This document shows, piece by piece, positions 14,750 through 24,318 of a stretch of DNA of 38,693 bases. The number at the start of each line of letters is the position of its first letter. The stretch's first letter is position 1. The position numbers were made by a program, and so were the translations under genes. The notes under the pieces are model-generated. The model saw nothing but the letters and a program-made list of their open reading frames with translations. It did no database searches and was not told where the DNA came from. Source of the DNA: an uncultured Alphaproteobacteria bacterium (GTDB lineage: Bacteria > Pseudomonadota > Alphaproteobacteria > UBA11222); contig CALAQW010000142.1 in the NCBI GenBank assembly GCA_937888955.1, positions 1 through 38,693 of the forward strand, given 5' to 3'.

Positions 14750-15655
14750 ATGTTCAGTGCGCCTGCCAACAGAAAAAATTTTTTTGCGACGTTAACAGGG
14801 GGGGAAACGGCGCGGTTTTTGTCTGTGGTTAAATGCCCGATGGCAGCGCTGCTGTGCTTGTTATCTCTATTATGCATTCAATTGCCGGTTTTGGCGAAAG
14901 CTGCTGAAAATAGACCAGTTTATGTATATGCGGCGGCTAGCATGCAAGTCGTCCTCACTGAAGTTTTGGCGCTGGCCGGCGATGAGCTGTCACTTGAAAT
15001 CGTGCCGGTTTATGGTGGGTCGGCCGGTCTGGCACGGCAGATTGCCCAAGGCGCGCCCGCAGCCTTGTTCCTGTCGGCCAATAATGGCTGGGTTCAATAT
15101 TTGTCCGACACTTATCCCGAGAGGATCAGCGAACAGCAGCCGCTGCTCAGAAACAGCCTGGCGTTTGTCGCATCGCCTTGCATGCGTGACTGGCACGGGC
15201 ATGCGGCTGTGCTGCCTGAGCCTGAGCCTGCGTCCGCGCAAGGCTTGCATGAGGCGATTGTCGCTGCCCTTCAGACGGGAGAGAAGATCGCCTTAGGCAT
15301 GCCTGACAGCGTCCCGGCGGGGAGCTATACGCGGCAGAGCCTGCAGGCGCTGGGGTTGTGGGACGCGGTGATGCGGCAGGCAGTCTATGCCGAAAATGTG
15401 ACTGTGGCGTTGAATTGGGTTGCGCGCTGCGATGTGGCATTCGGTTTTGTTTATGAAAGCGATGTGCTGGCAGGACAGAAATTGGGTGTGCGGCATGTTT
15501 CAGGAATCCCGGGCGAGCTGCATCAGCCGATCATTTATCCGATGGCATATATAAATGGTCCGCGGAACGACGATGCGCGCCGTCTGGGGGCATTTCTGAA
15601 ATCTGCGCAGGCGCGCGAGATTTTTTTGTCCCATGGGTTTGCATTGGCCAACTAG
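14750..15655 (+). CDS. modA: Molybdate ABC importer, periplasmic binding protein ModA
   Basis: ModA binds molybdate or tungstate in the periplasm. The mature part opens with the family motif VYAAASMQVVLTEVL, then VPVYGGSAGLARQI and LFLSANNGWVQYL, and later LGMPDSVPAGSYTRQSL and CDVAFGFVYESDV, all ModA-like. The start is uncertain. The ATG at 14750 gives an unusually long charged lead before the signal helix; an ATG at 14840 (MAALLCLLSLLCIQLP) gives a compact signal peptide but lacks a clear ribosome site and basic N-region. A chemoreceptor gene, not modB, follows it. Confidence 0.85.
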   Translation: MFSAPANRKNFFATLTGGETARFLSVVKCPMAALLCLLSLLCIQLPVLAKAAENRPVYVYAAASMQVVLTEVLALAGDELSLEIVPVYGGSAGLARQIAQGAPAALFLSANNGWVQYLSDTYPERISEQQPLLRNSLAFVASPCMRDWHGHAAVLPEPEPASAQGLHEAIVAALQTGEKIALGMPDSVPAGSYTRQSLQALGLWDAVMRQAVYAENVTVALNWVARCDVAFGFVYESDVLAGQKLGVRHVSGIPGELHQPIIYPMAYINGPRNDDARRLGAFLKSAQAREIFLSHGFALAN

Positions 15656-15681
15656 CCGATGAAATGAGCATGTCGCGGCCA

Positions 15682-15715
15682 TCACATAACCTTAACGCCG
15701 TCACATAACTTTAAC
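15682..15715. repeat. 15-bp direct repeat upstream of the chemoreceptor
   Basis: TCACATAACCTTAAC and TCACATAACTTTAAC (one mismatch) are repeated at a 19-bp period in the gap between modA and the chemoreceptor gene. They lie about 100-134 bp upstream of its ATG. The spacing and the TTAAC ends suggest a regulator-binding array; the factor is unknown. Confidence 0.55.
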
Positions 15716-15736
15716 ATTGGGTTTAGCTGCCATTAA
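15711..15736. promoter_or_regulatory. Possible CtrA-like half-site array
   Basis: TTAA, TTTA and TTAA start at 15711, 15722 and 15733, each 11 bp apart. They form TTAA-N7-TTTA and TTTA-N7-TTAAC, one base off the CtrA pattern each. The array is about 80 bp upstream of the chemoreceptor ATG. It is weaker evidence than the two exact boxes before flgB. Confidence 0.35.
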
Positions 15737-15815
15737 CCCGCTACCCCACATCCTGCCGGAAGTAACGGGTAGTTGTTGAAACCGGTAGTTCTTGTCGGTT
15801 CTTCAGGGGGTTGTA

Positions 15816-17546
15816 ATGCGTAGCGTATCGAAAGTGATTTGGGGAAAGGTCCAGATTACCTCTGTAACCTGGAAGGCTTGTTTAGGGGCGGCAATTGGCG
15901 GACTGGCCTTATTCAGTCTTATTTGCGGGGCCATTTTTCTGGCGTTCAAAACAGACGACGCCATGCGGAAAGTCGAGCTGTCGGAACATATTGTGGCGGA
16001 AGCGAACAGTTTCGTCGCGACGCTCACCAAGGCGCATGGCACGCTCTATCGTCTGACTGCGCAGGCAACCAATACCTCCAGTCTGACGAACGGAGCGCAG
16101 GTGGATATTGTGGGCCTGACCGCGACAATTCAGGAGACGCTCGGTGCGTTGCAGACGCAGCATGCCAATTTAGTCGGCGAAGTTGAGGATGGGATCATTT
16201 TCGCTCAATTGAATGACATCAGACCGGGCATTGCCGACTATACCGAAAAGTCATTGAAGGTGGCGGATCTGGCATCTTTCGGATCAGCGAAAGCGATGCG
16301 TGATATTCAGCGGGTCGATGAATTATATGACGCTCTCCTTACGGCGAGCTATCAGATTCAAAACAGTCTGAGCGCTGAGAATGATGCGGTGCGGGATGAA
16401 ACAGCCCGCTGGCTTCGCTCAGGCTGGGTCATCTTTATCGCGGCGTCCCTTGCCGGTCTGTTGCTGTCAGCCGGTTTTGCCTGGTCGATCGGCCGGAAAC
16501 TCGCTGCGCGTATAAAATCGGTCAGCGCCGCGATTGGCGATATCGCGGGGGGCAGGCAAGTCAACAAAGAACGAATGTATGCTGGTCAGGATGAACTTGG
16601 CGAAATCGTCCGAAATCTCACCATATTCGAACGGCATGCGATGGAGGCAAAGCAACTCACCGCTGTTCAGGCGCGTCAGAAACAAGAAACCGAGCAGCGT
16701 ATCGCGCAAGTGGGCAAGCTCTCTGAACAGTTTGATATAGTGGTGAGTGATGTGTTGCAGCAGCTATCGCAGTCGGGTGCGTATTTATCCCAAACGTCAA
16801 CGCGCCTTGCACAATCGGCTGACAACACGAAGCGTCGGACCGGAGAGGTGACCCAAATTGCCGAAAGCGCCAATCAGATGGTCAATAATGCCACCGATAT
16901 ATGCCGTGAATTGACGTCTTCAGTCCAGACGATCGGGCAGGGGGCGAAGCAATCGATTGACGGCACCGGCAAGGCGGAAGGCGCGGCGGCACAGATGGGG
17001 ACCATTTTGAGTGCACTTGACGCATCCGCCACAAAAATCGGCGATGTTCTGAATTTGATTTCAGAAATTTCCGATCGCACCAACCTGCTTGCCTTGAACG
17101 CAACGATTGAGGCAGCGCGTGCGGGTGAAGCGGGGCGGGGCTTCGCGATTGTGGCTTCGGAGGTCAAGAATCTCGCCGGGCAGACCGCCGAGGCGACGGC
17201 CGATATCGCACAGCTTGTGGCGGAAATTCAGAATGGGTCGGCGGGTGCTGTAAGCGCGATTGGCAATATTCGCGAAATCGCGCGCGAAAATGGTGATTTT
17301 GCGCAGCAAATTTCCGAGCAGGTGGAACATCAAATGGCAACGGTGCAAGCTGTTGCGCAGTCGATCGGCCAGCTGGGTGAGGGCAATCAGGCGATAAGTC
17401 AGGCCCTGCAACATGTTTTGGCGGAAGCTGACGAGACTGACGGTTCTGCGCTTCAGCTGGCGCAAGCGGTTGACGCGCTTCTTGAACAAAGCAGTGTGGT
17501 GCGCAGCGAACTTGACGCGTTTTTCGTGCAGCTTAAGGCCGCGTGA
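15816..17546 (+). CDS. Methyl-accepting chemotaxis protein
   Basis: This transmembrane chemoreceptor signals to CheA. I chose the ATG at 15816, which follows AGGGGG; the track's TTG at 15792 has no site. The 576 residues show a first membrane helix (about 24-44), a ~150-residue periplasmic helical sensor, a second helix (about 206-226), a HAMP domain (about 228-280) and the signalling domain. The signalling tip is [22 protein letters not shown], followed by [15 protein letters not shown]. There is no C-terminal CheR-binding pentapeptide. It lies between modA and modB on the same strand; the ligand is unknown, though a link to molybdate or to respiration that needs molybdenum enzymes is possible. 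Confidence 0.93.
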
Positions 17547-17694
17547 TCTTTCCTGTTGCCCCATTTTGCGTGCGGCATGGCCTTCCGGTCAGTATGGTCA
17601 GGGGGTTATAGTCTGGCCGGTCGTCAGATAGGAATGGCGAAGCGTCGTTCTGCAAATCGCGAATTTTCACCGATAAGGCCGAGAACACATATTC

Positions 17695-18396
17695 ATGTTT
17701 GCATTGACGCCGGCTGAAATCGAGGTTTTGAGCCTGTCATTGAAGGTTGCGTCCGTTGCCGTGATTGGCAGCTTGCCTGTCGGTGTGCTGGTTGCTTTTG
17801 CGTTGGCGCGTGGGCGATTCCCGGGGCGAATCTTTCTTGATGTTCTTGTGCATTTCCCGATTATCGCACCGCCAATTGTGGTGGGGTATTTGCTGCTGAT
17901 GATGTTCAGTCGGCAAAGTCCGCTGGGCGGCTGGCTTTTCGATCAGTTCGGAATCTCGGTGGCATTCAGCTGGCAGGCGGCTGCGATTGCTGCGGGGGTC
18001 ATGGGGTTCCCGCTCATGGTGCGCAGTATTCGCCTGTCGATCGAGCTGATCGACCGACGCCTGGAAACAGCTGCACAGACGCTGGGGGCACCACCGCTGC
18101 GTGTCTTTGCGACGGTGACGTTGCCACTGGCTTTGCCCGGTGTCCTGACCGGTTTGACATTGGCGTTTGCCCGCGCGCTGGGCGAATTTGGTGCGACAAT
18201 CGTTTTTGCGGCAAATATACCGGGGCAAACACGCACATTGCCGCTGGCGCTTTATACGGAACTGCAAATTCCGGGGCAGGATTTCGCCGCTGTCAGACTT
18301 ATGCTTTTATCCCTGGCGCTTGCTGTGGGGGCATTGGTGATATCGGAACTCATCAGCCGTCAATTGGGCAAGCGGGTTGTCGGTATGGCATATTGA
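17695..18396 (+). CDS. modB: Molybdate ABC importer, permease ModB
   Basis: ModB forms the membrane channel of the molybdate importer. The 233 residues contain about five to six membrane segments. ModB-typical sequence includes HFPIIAPPIVVGYLLLMMF near 61, the EAA-type loop ETAAQTLGAPPLRVFATVTLPLA, and GEFGATIVFAANIPGQTRTLPLALY. The ribosome site is poor (GAACACAT), so expression may depend on context. The ATPase modC, normally next, is absent; a small biotinyl-domain gene follows instead. The 148-base gap from the chemoreceptor shows no convincing terminator. Confidence 0.93.
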   Translation: MFALTPAEIEVLSLSLKVASVAVIGSLPVGVLVAFALARGRFPGRIFLDVLVHFPIIAPPIVVGYLLLMMFSRQSPLGGWLFDQFGISVAFSWQAAAIAAGVMGFPLMVRSIRLSIELIDRRLETAAQTLGAPPLRVFATVTLPLALPGVLTGLTLAFARALGEFGATIVFAANIPGQTRTLPLALYTELQIPGQDFAAVRLMLLSLALAVGALVISELISRQLGKRVVGMAY

Positions 18397-18432: not shown

Positions 18433-18654
18433 GTGGCGCGGATTGATGTTGTCAGTGAAATCGCGGGTAAAGTCTGGAAGATTTCCGCCGACCCCGGCAC
18501 GGCGCTGGAGGAGGAGGATGACGTTTTAATTCTTGAATCGATGAAGATGGAAATTCCTGTTCCCGCACCCGCCGCGGGCAAATTGGTTGAGTTGCTGGTG
18601 CGTGAAGGCGATGACGTTGCGGAAGGGCAGGCCGTCGCGGTAATCGAGGGCTAG
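18433..18654 (+). CDS. Stand-alone biotinyl/lipoyl-attachment domain protein
   Basis: The 73 residues make up one complete biotinyl domain with the attachment motif ESMKMEIPV (lysine 38) and the second half DDVAEGQAVAVIE. MKM with a following E and P points to biotin rather than lipoate. Such carriers serve acyl-CoA or pyruvate carboxylases, but no carboxylase gene is nearby. The start is GTG at 18433, preceded by AGAAGGG. It lies 36 bases after modB on the same strand. Its TAG stop overlaps the stop codon of the opposing kinase gene. Confidence 0.87.
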   Translation: MARIDVVSEIAGKVWKISADPGTALEEEDDVLILESMKMEIPVPAPAAGKLVELLVREGDDVAEGQAVAVIEG

Positions 18655-20057
18655 TTCTGTTGCGTTTGACGTGCTTGGGGTTGCGGCCTGCCTGCGATGA
18701 TCTTCTCGGATGGCCATACCAGATAGGCGGTGGTGCCGCTGCCTTGTTCCGAACGGATTTCGATTGACGCGCCCTGTCGTTCGGCAAGCGCTTTTGCAAG
18801 CGGAAGGCCAAGCCCCATGGCGCCAAGCTGGCTGCCGCTCCTATCGGTCTGCTCAAAAGGGTTGAGAACACGGTCTGCCATCTCAGCCGTCATGCCGATG
18901 CCTTTATCGATAACCGCGATCGCCAAATCGCCATTGTCGCGCCAGTCCGTGGAAATTGTGACCGTCTGCTCCGGTTTGGAGAATTTGATCGCGTTGGAAA
19001 GCAGGGCCGACAAAATCTGAATGACGTGCTTCCGGTCGCCAATAAGGTCGATTTGCAAGTCGGGTGTCGTGGCGACGAGTGTAATGCCGTGTTGCCGGGC
19101 AAGCTGTGTATTTTGCTTTATTGCCTGCTCGAGAATATCCGGCAGGCGAAACGGCTCATCAATCGGTTCAAGTTCACCGCTTTCCAGTTTGGTCAAATCC
19201 AGTATGTCATTGATCATCCCCAGAAGGCGATCGCTGCTATCGACAATATCCGTGACATAATCGTCGTATCGATCATCTCCCAGCGCGCCATGGACTTTTT
19301 GCTGCATTAATTCGCTGAAGCCGATAATTGCGTTTAACGGTGTACGCAATTGATGGCTGACAGTTGCCAGGAAACGCGACTTCGCGGCATTGGCATAGTT
19401 CGCTTCCGCCAGTGAAAGATTGAGTTTTGCGACAAGCTCCTTATTTGCCTGCCGAAGGGCCAGGGCATTCGCAACATCCTGGTTGCTGTTCCAGCCTGCG
19501 CGAAAGAAAATCGCGGCAGTGCCAATAAGGACCAGTGCCAGAACAAGCTCGTTGGCAGTTCCCGCAACTATCAGTTTCGCCAGAACAGGCAAATTAATGC
19601 AAAACAGGGCAACTAGCATTGCCGGGCGGTAGAGCATGAATGTTGTGGCGGTGGAGACGTTTGCCAAAGCGATAATGGCCGAAATGATGATCAGCTGTTC
19701 GGTCTCGTGAACGTGCCAATAGAGGAAGATCAGGCTCGACCATAGTGTGCAGGTCAGCCCGGCATATCCGGTTAGCATTAGCTCCGCCACGTCCAATCGG
19801 GTTTCGCGCATGGCGGTCTTCCTGATGAAGCGGGCAACGGGCAGACCTGCGAGTGCAAGCAGACTAAAACTCGCCAGCCAGACCGACAGCGGAGCCCAAA
19901 GCGCCTGACTGGGGATAAGATAAAGCCCGACCAGAACTGTTGCCGTCACGACGATCAGCATGTCCTTGCCAAGGCCTTGTGCCAGAAGTACGAGTTGTGC
20001 CGCCCGGACTGACTTTGGCAAATTGCTGATTTCTGCAGACCGCTTACTTTGCCACAT
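18651..20057 (-). CDS. Membrane sensor histidine kinase (orphan)
   Basis: I prefer the ATG at 20057 (MWQSKRSAEISN); the track start at 20144 is a TTG with GAGG directly against it. The 468-residue protein has about five to six hydrophobic helices in residues 30-190, with no recognisable extracellular sensor domain. A short coiled linker leads to a HisKA domain with H235 in FLATVSHQLRTPLNAIIGFSE. The ATPase boxes are SNAIKFS, VIDKGIGM and GLGLPLAKALAERQG. There is no receiver domain and no response regulator nearby. The kinase core closely resembles that of the Amt-kinase fusion two genes away, suggesting a shared partner or duplication. Its stop overlaps that of the biotinyl gene. Confidence 0.88.
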   Translation of the reverse strand: MWQSKRSAEISNLPKSVRAAQLVLLAQGLGKDMLIVVTATVLVGLYLIPSQALWAPLSVWLASFSLLALAGLPVARFIRKTAMRETRLDVAELMLTGYAGLTCTLWSSLIFLYWHVHETEQLIIISAIIALANVSTATTFMLYRPAMLVALFCINLPVLAKLIVAGTANELVLALVLIGTAAIFFRAGWNSNQDVANALALRQANKELVAKLNLSLAEANYANAAKSRFLATVSHQLRTPLNAIIGFSELMQQKVHGALGDDRYDDYVTDIVDSSDRLLGMINDILDLTKLESGELEPIDEPFRLPDILEQAIKQNTQLARQHGITLVATTPDLQIDLIGDRKHVIQILSALLSNAIKFSKPEQTVTISTDWRDNGDLAIAVIDKGIGMTAEMADRVLNPFEQTDRSGSQLGAMGLGLPLAKALAERQGASIEIRSEQGSGTTAYLVWPSEKIIAGRPQPQARQTQQN

Positions 20058-20270
20058 GAAAGCCCAACAGATAGGTGGAAGCCCGTCAATGACGGGACTT
20101 GTGATGAATTTGCAAAATATGCGCTGACGCAGACTGACTAACAAACCTCAACGACAGTCATAGTGCAAATTTGTAAATAAATCCGGAATTAGACTGTCTC
20201 GGGACTGCGGCATTGGGCGTAAGGAACTGAACGACGAGTTTCCCGGTTTCGTTATATGCCAGCGCGAACG

Positions 20271-20909: not shown

Positions 20910-23093
20910 TCAGATTCTCGCAAGCTTCTGTCCGGACTTCACAATACGGTCTGCCGGCAGACGAACAATTGCCCGGGTACCGACGCCCGGTTCGCTTTCG
21001 AGCAGAAATGTCCCGCAGTGAAGCCGGACCAGCGCGGCGACCAGCGGCAATCCAAGCCCGGTTCCCTGCGCTTTGTTGGTCGTAGCTGCATTACTTGTAT
21101 CGCCGATTTGCTCAAATGGCAGCAATGCCCGGTCGATTTGCGAGCGGGCGATGCCAATGCCTGTATCTTCAATTTTGATTGCAATGCGGCCATCGGCTTC
21201 AATCAGGGCAGTCACGCTTACAGCCCCGCCGCTGGGCGTAAACTTGACAGCGTTGGAAAGCAAATTGAGGATAATCTGCCGCATCGCGCGCAAATCGGCC
21301 CAGATATAGGGGAAATCAGCAGGAACATTATTAGACAACTGAACGTTGTTTTCTTCCGCACGCCGGCGAATCATGGGCATCACCGACTCAACCGCCTCAA
21401 ACAAATTGAATTGTGATTCTTCCAGTTCGCGTTTGTTGGCGTCGATTTTCGAAAGATCCAGAATATCGTTGATCAGGCTGAGCAGATGCTGACCAGCATT
21501 GTGTATATCCTGCGCATATTCCTTATATTGCGGTGTGCCAACCGGTCCCATCAATTCAGTATTCATAATCTCCGAAAAGCCAATGATGGCATTGAGCGGC
21601 GTTCTTAGTTCGTGGCTCATATTCGCAAGGAATTGCGACTTTGCGGTATTCGCGATGTCTGCTTCTTCCTTGGCTTGCCGCAGTTTTACGGCGACCTGTT
21701 CGCGTGCGGCAACTTCAGAAACAAAGCGCTTGCGTACACCATTATAGCGCCGGGCGACTTCACCGGCTTCGGTAAATGGTTCCACCGGAACGGTCGCGGT
21801 AAAATCGCCGCTGTTCCGCTGATGCTCCATAACCTCCAATACTTCAAAAAGCGCTGTACTGGCACCATGCTCGGAGACATTAAGCCCGCGCTTTTCATCA
21901 TAAGCGCTGACGCGCAGGGCGCTGAAGTAATTGGCAATTTTGAGTACAACGAAGCCGACGGTAAAAGCATAAAAACCATTTGCTGCAATGCCTGCGAATT
22001 GCGCAAATAGCTGTTGTGGGCGCGAAAGCCCAGTGCCCAGAATTTCCAGATTGCCGAACAGCGCGACCGCAAGCGTGCCCCAGACGCCGGCAGCCAGATG
22101 AACCGGAATGGCGTCGACCGCGTCGTCAATCTGTGCCCAGATCAAAAGATTGGAGGCAAATATTGCAATAATCCCGCCGGTCGCCCCGATGATGATTGCA
22201 GAAACCGGCCCGACAGCGTGACAACCCGCAGTGATCGATACCAGGCCAGCAAGAACCCCGCACATTGTGCGCACGACATTCGGTCCATGGTTGTCTGAAC
22301 ACCAACTCATCGCTAACGCCGCCATGCCGCCCGCGCAGGATGCCAGCAAGGTGTTCAGCAAAATCGGTGGCACATTATTGCTGAACAGTAACGTGCTGCC
22401 GCCATTAAAGCCAAACCAGCCTAGCCACAATAAAAACATGCCCAATGCAGCCAGCGGAATATCATGGCCCTCAATGGCTTTACCTTGTGGGCCAAAACGG
22501 CCAATGCGCGGGCCGATCGTCAGGATGGCCGCAAGCGCGATCCATCCGCCTGTGGAATGAACGACTGTCGAGCCAGCAAAGTCGACAAAGCCCATTTGCG
22601 CAAGCCAGCCTGGCGCGTCTTCATAAAGTGCACCGGCCCAGGCCCAATGTCCGAAAACAGGATAGACAATGCCGGAAAGAAGGCCGGCAACGATGAGATA
22701 ACCGCTGAACTTCATCCTTTCTGCGACCGCGCCGGAAACGATCGTAACCGCGGTGCCGCAGAAGGCGAGCTGAAACAGAAAAAAGGCGGTTGTTTGGGCG
22801 CTGTAGAAGTTACGTGAATCAGCATGCCCGAACAAGAAATCTGTCGTGCCGATCCAGCCAAGCGTCGACGCGCCGAACATGATGCCAAATCCGAAACACC
22901 AATAGACAAGACTCGACAGACAGAAGTCGGCAACGTTCTTGATCGCTACATTGATAGAATTCTTCGCGCGGACAAGGCCGCTTTCAAGACAGGCAAAGCC
23001 AGCCTGCATTCCCATGACAAGAATTGTACAGGCCAGTACCCAAAAAATATCGATTCCGGGCCCGCTATTTGTAGCTAGAAGTTCGCCAGACAT
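20910..23093 (-). CDS. Ammonium transporter-histidine kinase fusion (Amt-HK)
   Basis: The 727 residues join a full Amt channel (about 1-410) to a histidine kinase (about 480-720). Amt features kept are the pore twin histidines H179 (STVVHSTGG) and H332 (IPVHLAAGVWG), the phenylalanine gate region FQLAF (107-111), F229 in WFGFNGGS, and the C-terminal tail GLNVSEHG. A helical linker follows, then HisKA with H494 (FLANMSHELRTPLNAIIGFSE) and ATPase boxes NLLSNAVKF, IEDTGIGI, GTGLGLPL. There is no receiver domain. Amt-kinase fusions are known as ammonium sensors (for example Ks-Amt5 of Kuenenia). The intact pore residues leave open both transport and sensing. The ATG follows GGGGGAG. No glnK or response regulator is in the window. 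Confidence 0.93.
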   Translation of the reverse strand: MSGELLATNSGPGIDIFWVLACTILVMGMQAGFACLESGLVRAKNSINVAIKNVADFCLSSLVYWCFGFGIMFGASTLGWIGTTDFLFGHADSRNFYSAQTTAFFLFQLAFCGTAVTIVSGAVAERMKFSGYLIVAGLLSGIVYPVFGHWAWAGALYEDAPGWLAQMGFVDFAGSTVVHSTGGWIALAAILTIGPRIGRFGPQGKAIEGHDIPLAALGMFLLWLGWFGFNGGSTLLFSNNVPPILLNTLLASCAGGMAALAMSWCSDNHGPNVVRTMCGVLAGLVSITAGCHAVGPVSAIIIGATGGIIAIFASNLLIWAQIDDAVDAIPVHLAAGVWGTLAVALFGNLEILGTGLSRPQQLFAQFAGIAANGFYAFTVGFVVLKIANYFSALRVSAYDEKRGLNVSEHGASTALFEVLEVMEHQRNSGDFTATVPVEPFTEAGEVARRYNGVRKRFVSEVAAREQVAVKLRQAKEEADIANTAKSQFLANMSHELRTPLNAIIGFSEIMNTELMGPVGTPQYKEYAQDIHNAGQHLLSLINDILDLSKIDANKRELEESQFNLFEAVESVMPMIRRRAEENNVQLSNNVPADFPYIWADLRAMRQIILNLLSNAVKFTPSGGAVSVTALIEADGRIAIKIEDTGIGIARSQIDRALLPFEQIGDTSNAATTNKAQGTGLGLPLVAALVRLHCGTFLLESEPGVGTRAIVRLPADRIVKSGQKLARI

Positions 23094-23235: not shown

Positions 23236-23277
23236 TTTGTAAACTGACCGGCATGCCAACTTGCCATGCCGGTCAGT
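23236..23277 (-). terminator. Terminator hairpin after asd
   Basis: A perfect 13-bp inverted repeat ACTGACCGGCATG / CATGCCGGTCAGT (23243-23255 and 23265-23277) has a 9-base loop. It lies 16 bases after the asd stop. On the minus strand it is followed only by TTTACAAAC, so the U-tract is short, but stem strength and position fit a terminator that separates asd from the Amt-kinase gene. Confidence 0.7.
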
Positions 23278-23292
23278 CACATGCGTGTATGT

Positions 23293-24318
23293 CTAACCGC
23301 GCGGTTTGGTCAGATGTCTTGCGATTAATTGTTCGGCGATCTGTACGGCATTGAGGGCTGCGCCTTTACGCAGATTGTCCGATACAACCCACATTGCAAG
23401 ACCGTTTTCAGTCGTGATGTCATCCCGAATCCGCGAAATATAGGTTGCGTATTCGCCGACGCATTCAACAGGGGTGATATAGCCGCCATCTTCGCGCTTA
23501 TCGACCACCATGCAGCCGGGCGATTCGCGCAGCAGATCCCGCGCTTCTTCCGCACTCAGAGGTTGCTCAAGCTCAATGTTGACAGCTTCGGAATGGCCGA
23601 CGAAGACAGGGACGCGGACACATGTCGCAGTAACCTTGATTGCGGAATCGATGATCTTCTTGACCTCGACCACCATCTTCCATTCTTCCTTGGTCGAACC
23701 GTCATCCAGGAACACATCGATATGGGGGATAACATTGAATGCGATTTGTTTCGTGAAGACATCCTTTTCGATCGGGTCCGAGACGAACACAGCGCGGGTC
23801 TGCTGAAACAATTCATCCATGCCGGCCTTGCCTGCCCCAGAAGCCGACTGATAGGTCGATACAATAACGCGCTTGATCTTTGCGCGGTCATGCAGCGGCT
23901 TGAGTGCCACGACAAGCTGGGCTGTCGAGCAGTTGGGGTTGGCGATGATCCGCTTTTTGGTATAGCCCGCCAGCGCATCGCCATTTACTTCTGGCACGAT
24001 GAGCGGGACATCGGGATCCATGCGGAACTTGCTTGAATTATCGATGACAACACAGCCCGCAGCCGCGACTTTCGGCGCATATTCTTCTGAAATACTGCCG
24101 CCCGCAGAAAACAGGGCGATATCGGTATCGCTGAAGTCATAGTGTTCGAGAACTTTTGCCTTCAGCGTCTTGTCGCCGTAAGAGACTTCCGTGCCAAGAC
24201 TGCGCCGTGATGCCAAAGCGACAACGTCGCTGGCCGGAAATTGCCGTTCGGCCAGAATGTTCAACATTTCCCGACCAACCGCGCCCGTAGCGCCAACAAC
24301 CGCAACTCGATAACCCAT
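23293..24318 (-). CDS. asd: Aspartate-semialdehyde dehydrogenase
   Basis: Asd reduces beta-aspartyl phosphate to aspartate semialdehyde, the branch point to lysine/diaminopimelate, threonine and methionine. The 341 residues begin with the NADP-binding VAVVGATGAVGREML. They contain the catalytic cysteine C130 in NPNCSTAQLVVAL, the STYQSASGAGKAGMDEL segment and VGHSEAVNIELEQPL. Length and motifs are those of the Gram-negative USG-1-like/Asd family. It is the last gene of the minus-strand block, 53 bases after leuB, and is followed by a strong hairpin. Confidence 0.96.
   Translation of the reverse strand: MGYRVAVVGATGAVGREMLNILAERQFPASDVVALASRRSLGTEVSYGDKTLKAKVLEHYDFSDTDIALFSAGGSISEEYAPKVAAAGCVVIDNSSKFRMDPDVPLIVPEVNGDALAGYTKKRIIANPNCSTAQLVVALKPLHDRAKIKRVIVSTYQSASGAGKAGMDELFQQTRAVFVSDPIEKDVFTKQIAFNVIPHIDVFLDDGSTKEEWKMVVEVKKIIDSAIKVTATCVRVPVFVGHSEAVNIELEQPLSAEEARDLLRESPGCMVVDKREDGGYITPVECVGEYATYISRIRDDITTENGLAMWVVSDNLRKGAALNAVQIAEQLIARHLTKPRG

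Follow-up and report, generated by a model that had tools for sequence, protein, structure and literature searches.

The amt-HAMP-HK gene probably encodes a membrane ammonium receptor kinase with a HAMP-type relay, for which DivK and PleD are candidate outputs and which would leave ammonium uptake to another Amt protein. The gene lies in the window, which is the whole 38,693-nucleotide stretch of DNA analysed here. Two receptors of this general kind have already been published, the Amt-kinase Ks-Amt5 in 2018 and the Amt-cyclase Sd-Amt1 in 2024. What sets the present version apart is its kinase, which is similar to the cell-cycle kinases of related bacteria. A limited literature search, which is weak evidence of absence, found no published description of an Amt-HAMP-PdhS-type kinase family.

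The open reading frame begins with an ATG at 23093 and runs uninterrupted through 727 codons on the minus strand (Table 1). Pfam Ammonium_transp covers residues 18-412 (E 9.6e-117); this domain, HisKA and HATPase_c all score above the curated Pfam cut-offs. The pore residues are kept, namely the selectivity filter (W152/S233), the Phe gate (F111/F229) and the twin histidines (H179/H332). The first-pass annotation described a complete Amt part; the pore histidines, gate aromatics and tail are indeed present, but the near-universal Asp of the GLD motif in the tail is Asn (N405). The complete HisKA-ATPase module that it described is borne out by the Pfam domains and by the kinase motifs (H494, N box at 610, G1 at 643 and G2 at 677), all of which are present.

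Table 1. Features of the amt-HAMP-HK locus (window coordinates)
Feature	Position	Strand	Basis or remarks
amt-HAMP-HK gene, 727 aa	20910..23093	minus	ORF, Pfam, full-length orthologues, dN/dS about 0.05
Amt (ammonium channel-fold) receptor domain, residues 18-412	21858..23042	minus	Pfam PF00909, residue check, AlphaFold2 model match
N405 codon, Asn replacing Asp of the C-terminal GLD motif	21879..21881	minus	Receptor versus non-receptor comparison
HAMP-like linker, residues 409-480	21654..21869	minus	Homology of linkers, AlphaFold2 helices
HisKA/DHp domain, residues 484-552; phospho-acceptor H494 (21612-21614), HELRTP box	21438..21644	minus	Pfam, motif check
HATPase_c (CA) domain, residues 600-715; N, G1 and G2 boxes	20949..21296	minus	Pfam, motif check
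Strong hairpin between asd and amt-HAMP-HK (probable asd terminator)	23236..23284	minus	-30.3 kcal/mol, z -6.4; weak T-run
asd (aspartate-semialdehyde dehydrogenase), directly upstream	23293..24318	minus	

A 115-row tree of Amt domains places every receptor that has an output domain in one group. In a 74-row tree a single branch (bootstrap 100, SH-aLRT 99; present in 100% of bootstrap trees) splits 34 signalling Amts from 40 others. The 34 include kinase, PAS-kinase, GGDEF and MCP fusions as well as Ks-Amt5 and Sd-Amt1; the receptor clade contains no stand-alone transporter. The Amt domain of the window protein belongs to this clade and does not group with ordinary transporters, so that the earlier proposal of a direct ammonium sensor is well supported by homology. 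The window protein is nevertheless not of the Ks-Amt5 type proper. Its family falls inside a group with Sd-Amt1 and the GGDEF fusions (25 rows, 100/98), and Ks-Amt5 is found near the base of the receptors; a forced common Amt-HK clade including Ks-Amt5 is rejected (p-AU 0.00248), and the HAMP-like linker has no counterpart in Ks-Amt5. Given this topology and the rejected clade, receptor Amts look like one lineage in which the output has been swapped several times and a kinase acquired more than once. This indicates a single modular family of ammonium-receptor Amts, with kinase, cyclase and chemoreceptor outputs behind a common Amt-HAMP unit.

Receptors and transporters also differ at the C-terminal GLD motif. 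Its Asp is kept in 97 of 98 non-receptor Amts, whereas each of the 17 receptors in the first set has Asn instead. Asn is also found in all 45 further receptors detected by the linker profile, a count mildly biased by the GLN column included in that profile. Co-operativity among the subunits of E. coli AmtB is believed to be mediated by its C-terminal region (PMC10433425); for this reason, the change from GLD to GLN would fit a tail that has been re-used for signalling. Receptor Amts tend to be annotated as 'ammonium transporter', and the GLN or GLD tail could serve as a simple marker separating the two classes in annotation. When full-span rows are counted, the full linker profile occurs in 31 of the 385 genomes sampled from the class (about 8%) and in about 20 of 399 sampled genomes of the phylum. 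Most receptors in the class carry a kinase, and the spacing from tail to H-box is identical in 20 of 21; elsewhere in the phylum the receptors are mostly GGDEF proteins.

The segment between the Amt and kinase domains had been described as a helical linker. It is helical, but it is not merely a helix: the linker profile and the Pfam HAMP matches of its relatives mark it as HAMP-derived, and it is best regarded as a putative divergent HAMP domain. Pfam HAMP is found at the same columns of homologous linkers (E 8e-9 in L116, 4e-4 in L030 and 0.009 in L033). The window protein's own linker falls below the Pfam HAMP threshold and is not called, so the term HAMP-like rests on homology to these relatives. 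A profile of 14 homologous Amt-output linkers matches the linker of Sd-Amt1 (E 7.6e-10) and 9trk, a protein with HAMP-like repeats (6e-6). The second half of the profile repeatedly matches HAMP domains of chemoreceptors (MCPs) in whole genomes, with E about 1e-9; two of these matches were verified as Pfam HAMP. AlphaFold2 predicts a helix at 413-428, a connector at 429-441 and a helix from 442 that is continuous with DHp helix 1, a modelled layout as expected for HAMP. A Foldseek search of the monomer model (linker plus DHp) against the PDB returned DHp structures, and HAMP-DHp fusions weakly (E 0.02-0.05, large rmsd).

The same fusion is present in more than 20 relatives. A same-genus genome has it at full length with 89% identity across 726 residues, and other genomes, some of them single-contig, have it at 49-64% identity; the spacing between the Amt tail and the kinase is nearly invariant among them. 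Comparison with the closest orthologue gives dN 0.067 and dS 1.43 (dN/dS about 0.05), and dN/dS is low for the Amt, linker and kinase parts separately, each of which is thus under constraint. These orthologues and the low dN/dS identify one genuine gene, and a check for resolution of the ORF into two genes, proposed in the first-pass annotation, gave no such result. The window comes from a 217-contig assembly with 5.7% contamination, in which separate transporter and kinase genes could have been run together, by the assembly itself or by annotation. However, since the fusion recurs with the same spacing in single-contig genomes and in many families, and since the dN/dS of about 0.05 extends over the full length, an artefact of this kind is extremely improbable, and a join of two separate genes was rejected.

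What the Amt part does is a separate matter. The ammonium-site positions of Ks-Amt5 hold two ammonium ions, and six of the seven are kept here (Q30, E37, N53, D56, T117 and S120). Residue differences from Ks-Amt5 are F57 for T51 and S120 for T112. The same six residues are also found in 43 of 98 non-receptor Amts; the site is therefore compatible with sensing but not diagnostic of it, and it was discarded as proof of sensing. The plug of Ks-Amt5 (F27/Y30/F34) reads F33/L36/L40, with two of the three residues not conserved. The equivalent of F33 is Phe in 82 of 91 stand-alone Amts and so is not a plug marker; the plug was likewise discarded as proof that there is no transport. With an intact pore and a plug that is not conserved, loss of transport is not readable from the sequence. 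The protein could be a transceptor, in which the Amt part still passes ammonium fast enough to be useful and the kinase monitors flux, or occupancy during transport. The selectivity filter, Phe gate and twin histidines are all in place for this, Leu at the Y30 and F34 positions is as in many transporters, and F33 carries no plug-specific meaning. Ks-Amt5, however, also has all the pore motifs and does not translocate efficiently (PMC5764959), and the window's own genome has two other Amts. The position of the Amt domain in the receptor clade and the change of the near-universal GLD Asp to Asn lean against a transport role, and the transceptor reading appears rather unlikely. A good deal less probable is that the Amt domain survives as a relic that anchors the protein in the membrane, or responds to a cue other than ammonium (e.g. 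methylammonium or membrane state), with the kinase controlled mainly via HAMP/DHp. Ligand identity in the window lineage does rest on homology, and the sequence does not explain how a trimeric Amt is matched to a dimeric kinase. Yet the Amt part is itself under strong purifying selection (dN 0.066, dS 1.4), the pore and the six site residues are all conserved, and Sd-Amt1, the nearest solved relative, has been deposited in ON and OFF states.

The closest solved structures are these two states of Sd-Amt1 (8qj4/8qj3; 46/45% identity, TMt 0.94 with the AlphaFold2 model), followed by Ks-Amt5 (6eu6, titled 'Sensor Amt Protein'). Sd-Amt1 from Shewanella denitrificans (PDB 8qj3, 8qj4, 8qpf) and the window protein share an Amt module of the same fold (45-46% identical), a homologous HAMP-type linker and membership of the receptor clade; they differ in output, which is GGDEF in Sd-Amt1 (match to 8qj3 residues 417-630) and HisKA plus HATPase_c in the window protein. 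This Amt-cyclase receptor was described by Pfluger et al. in 2024 (Sci Adv eadm9441), reportedly with a HAMP between Amt and cyclase and with the HAMPs paired. Ks-Amt5 from Ca. Kuenenia stuttgartiensis (PDB 6eu6; PMC5764959) is likewise an Amt joined to a HisKA kinase, with no GlnK nearby, Asn in the GLN tail and a place in the receptor clade. Unlike the window protein, it has no HAMP, belongs to a separate kinase-fusion lineage (p-AU 0.002) and has plug residues Y30 and F34. It binds NH4+ selectively and shows NH4+-dependent kinase phosphorylation without efficient translocation (PMC5764959). GlnK-linked assimilatory Amts of the E. coli AmtB type, one of which is found in the window's own genome on contig C156, have the same fold and pore residues but no kinase; they have a GLD tail, are linked to glnK and lie outside the receptor clade.

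Among the NCBIfam kinase models, the kinase core scores best against DivJ (241 bits) and then PdhS (213 bits), although both scores are well short of the 1000 and 2000 required for whole-protein equivalogs. Within its genome, the window kinase is the top DivJ match (243 versus 213 for the next kinase). It differs from the DivJ/PleC/PdhS kinases of Alphaproteobacteria (PMC7003649) by its Amt sensor domain. DivK and PleD are the predicted targets of PdhS-family kinases (PMC7003649). A divK-pleD operon is found on contig C157 of the same genome; its DivK matches Caulobacter DivK (1m5t) with 200 bits, and its PleD has the architecture REC-REC-GGEEF. A DivJ-like kinase and a divK-pleD operon in one genome make DivK and/or PleD the leading candidate partners among the genome's roughly 30 receiver proteins. 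The DHp pattern or H-box neighbourhood is common to about eight of the genome's kinases, so the assignment is weak, and it is put forward from sequence comparison as a tentative one. Similarly speculative is the broader idea that a widespread Amt-HAMP kinase family feeds external ammonium directly into the DivK/PleD (CtrA / c-di-GMP) developmental pathway; external nitrogen would then set cell-cycle progression or the choice between motile and sessile life, bypassing PII/Ntr. The DivK, PleD and PdhS content of the genome also points to Alphaproteobacteria as its class.

Upstream of amt-HAMP-HK on the same strand are leuC, leuD, leuB and asd; asd directly precedes the receptor gene in five of 25 receptor loci. 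The hairpin between asd and the receptor gene, which was not flagged in a simple terminator scan, is a probable asd terminator, and amt-HAMP-HK is thus probably transcribed as a separate unit. The 200-bp upstream gap has no flagged sigma-70-type promoter. A sigma-54 site was considered and rejected: the window has 65 matches against 57 expected, and none is in the gap. Downstream is a gene resembling F420H2-dependent reductases and then another kinase. This second orphan histidine kinase (18651-20144, minus strand) lies two genes downstream of the Amt kinase, and its position is conserved in the same-genus genome (L109 11512-12918). There is no PII or response regulator gene adjoining amt-HAMP-HK in the neighbourhood, in agreement with the first reading of the locus. 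The PII genes of the genome are found on contigs C15 and C156, with none in the window. On C156, glnK and a stand-alone Amt adjoin each other, so the genome has the standard glnK-amt pair at another locus. Among 25 receptor loci there is no conserved neighbouring response regulator; a receiver-bearing neighbour is found in only three, on the opposite strand. The Amt kinase is therefore an orphan. A third Amt of the genome, on C126 (L003 / L118), is distant in the tree from the glnK-linked Amt and likewise from the receptor clade.

For the ammonium receptor kinase, the following mechanism is proposed. Ammonium would enter the Amt trimer by the usual vestibule and be held within the membrane core at the six kept site residues. 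Binding would change the conformation of the C-terminal tail; the HAMP-type linkers, presumably pairing beneath the trimer, would hand this change to the DHp helices and so alter autophosphorylation or phosphatase activity at H494. The phosphoryl group would pass to a response regulator encoded elsewhere, with DivK and/or PleD as leading candidate acceptor since the kinase core resembles those of DivJ, PleC and PdhS. The separate glnK-linked Amt would handle ammonium uptake. The conserved orphan Amt kinase also offers a place to look for the missing response regulator of an Amt kinase, with DivK/PleD as the first guess.

Other Amt fusions were found in the sampled genomes. Amt receptors with GGDEF(-EAL) outputs (L029, L031, L032, L239-L253), some of them 1000-1300 aa long, are found in gammaproteobacteria and other members of the phylum. 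Six receptor Amts (L035, L116, L224, L225, L226, L266) have an output that is, or resembles, a chemoreceptor signalling domain; Pfam MCPsignal was verified in L035 and L116, and the six are likely direct ammonium chemotaxis receptors. The genome of L266 also encodes an Amt-GGDEF receptor. Clostridial Amts with a C-terminal extension (L058, L060, L064, L065, L088, L089, L091) group in a clade apart from the receptors and retain the GLD motif; the extension of L058 is a PII domain (E 1e-25), and these proteins are a natural channel-regulator fusion.

Two pairs of contigs in the window's own assembly, C44 with C139 and C86 with C177, give same-sized kinase and regulator matches with identical scores on both contigs, suggesting redundant or duplicated stretches. 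In the window itself, an MCP chemoreceptor gene (15792-17546) lies between modA (14750-15655) and modB (17695-18396) on the plus strand (region 14750-18396). The same modA-MCP-modB order is found in the same-genus genome (L109 13027-16668), where the genes encode 296, 584 and 255 aa. Molybdate chemotaxis with ModA as the binding protein is a possible function of this arrangement.
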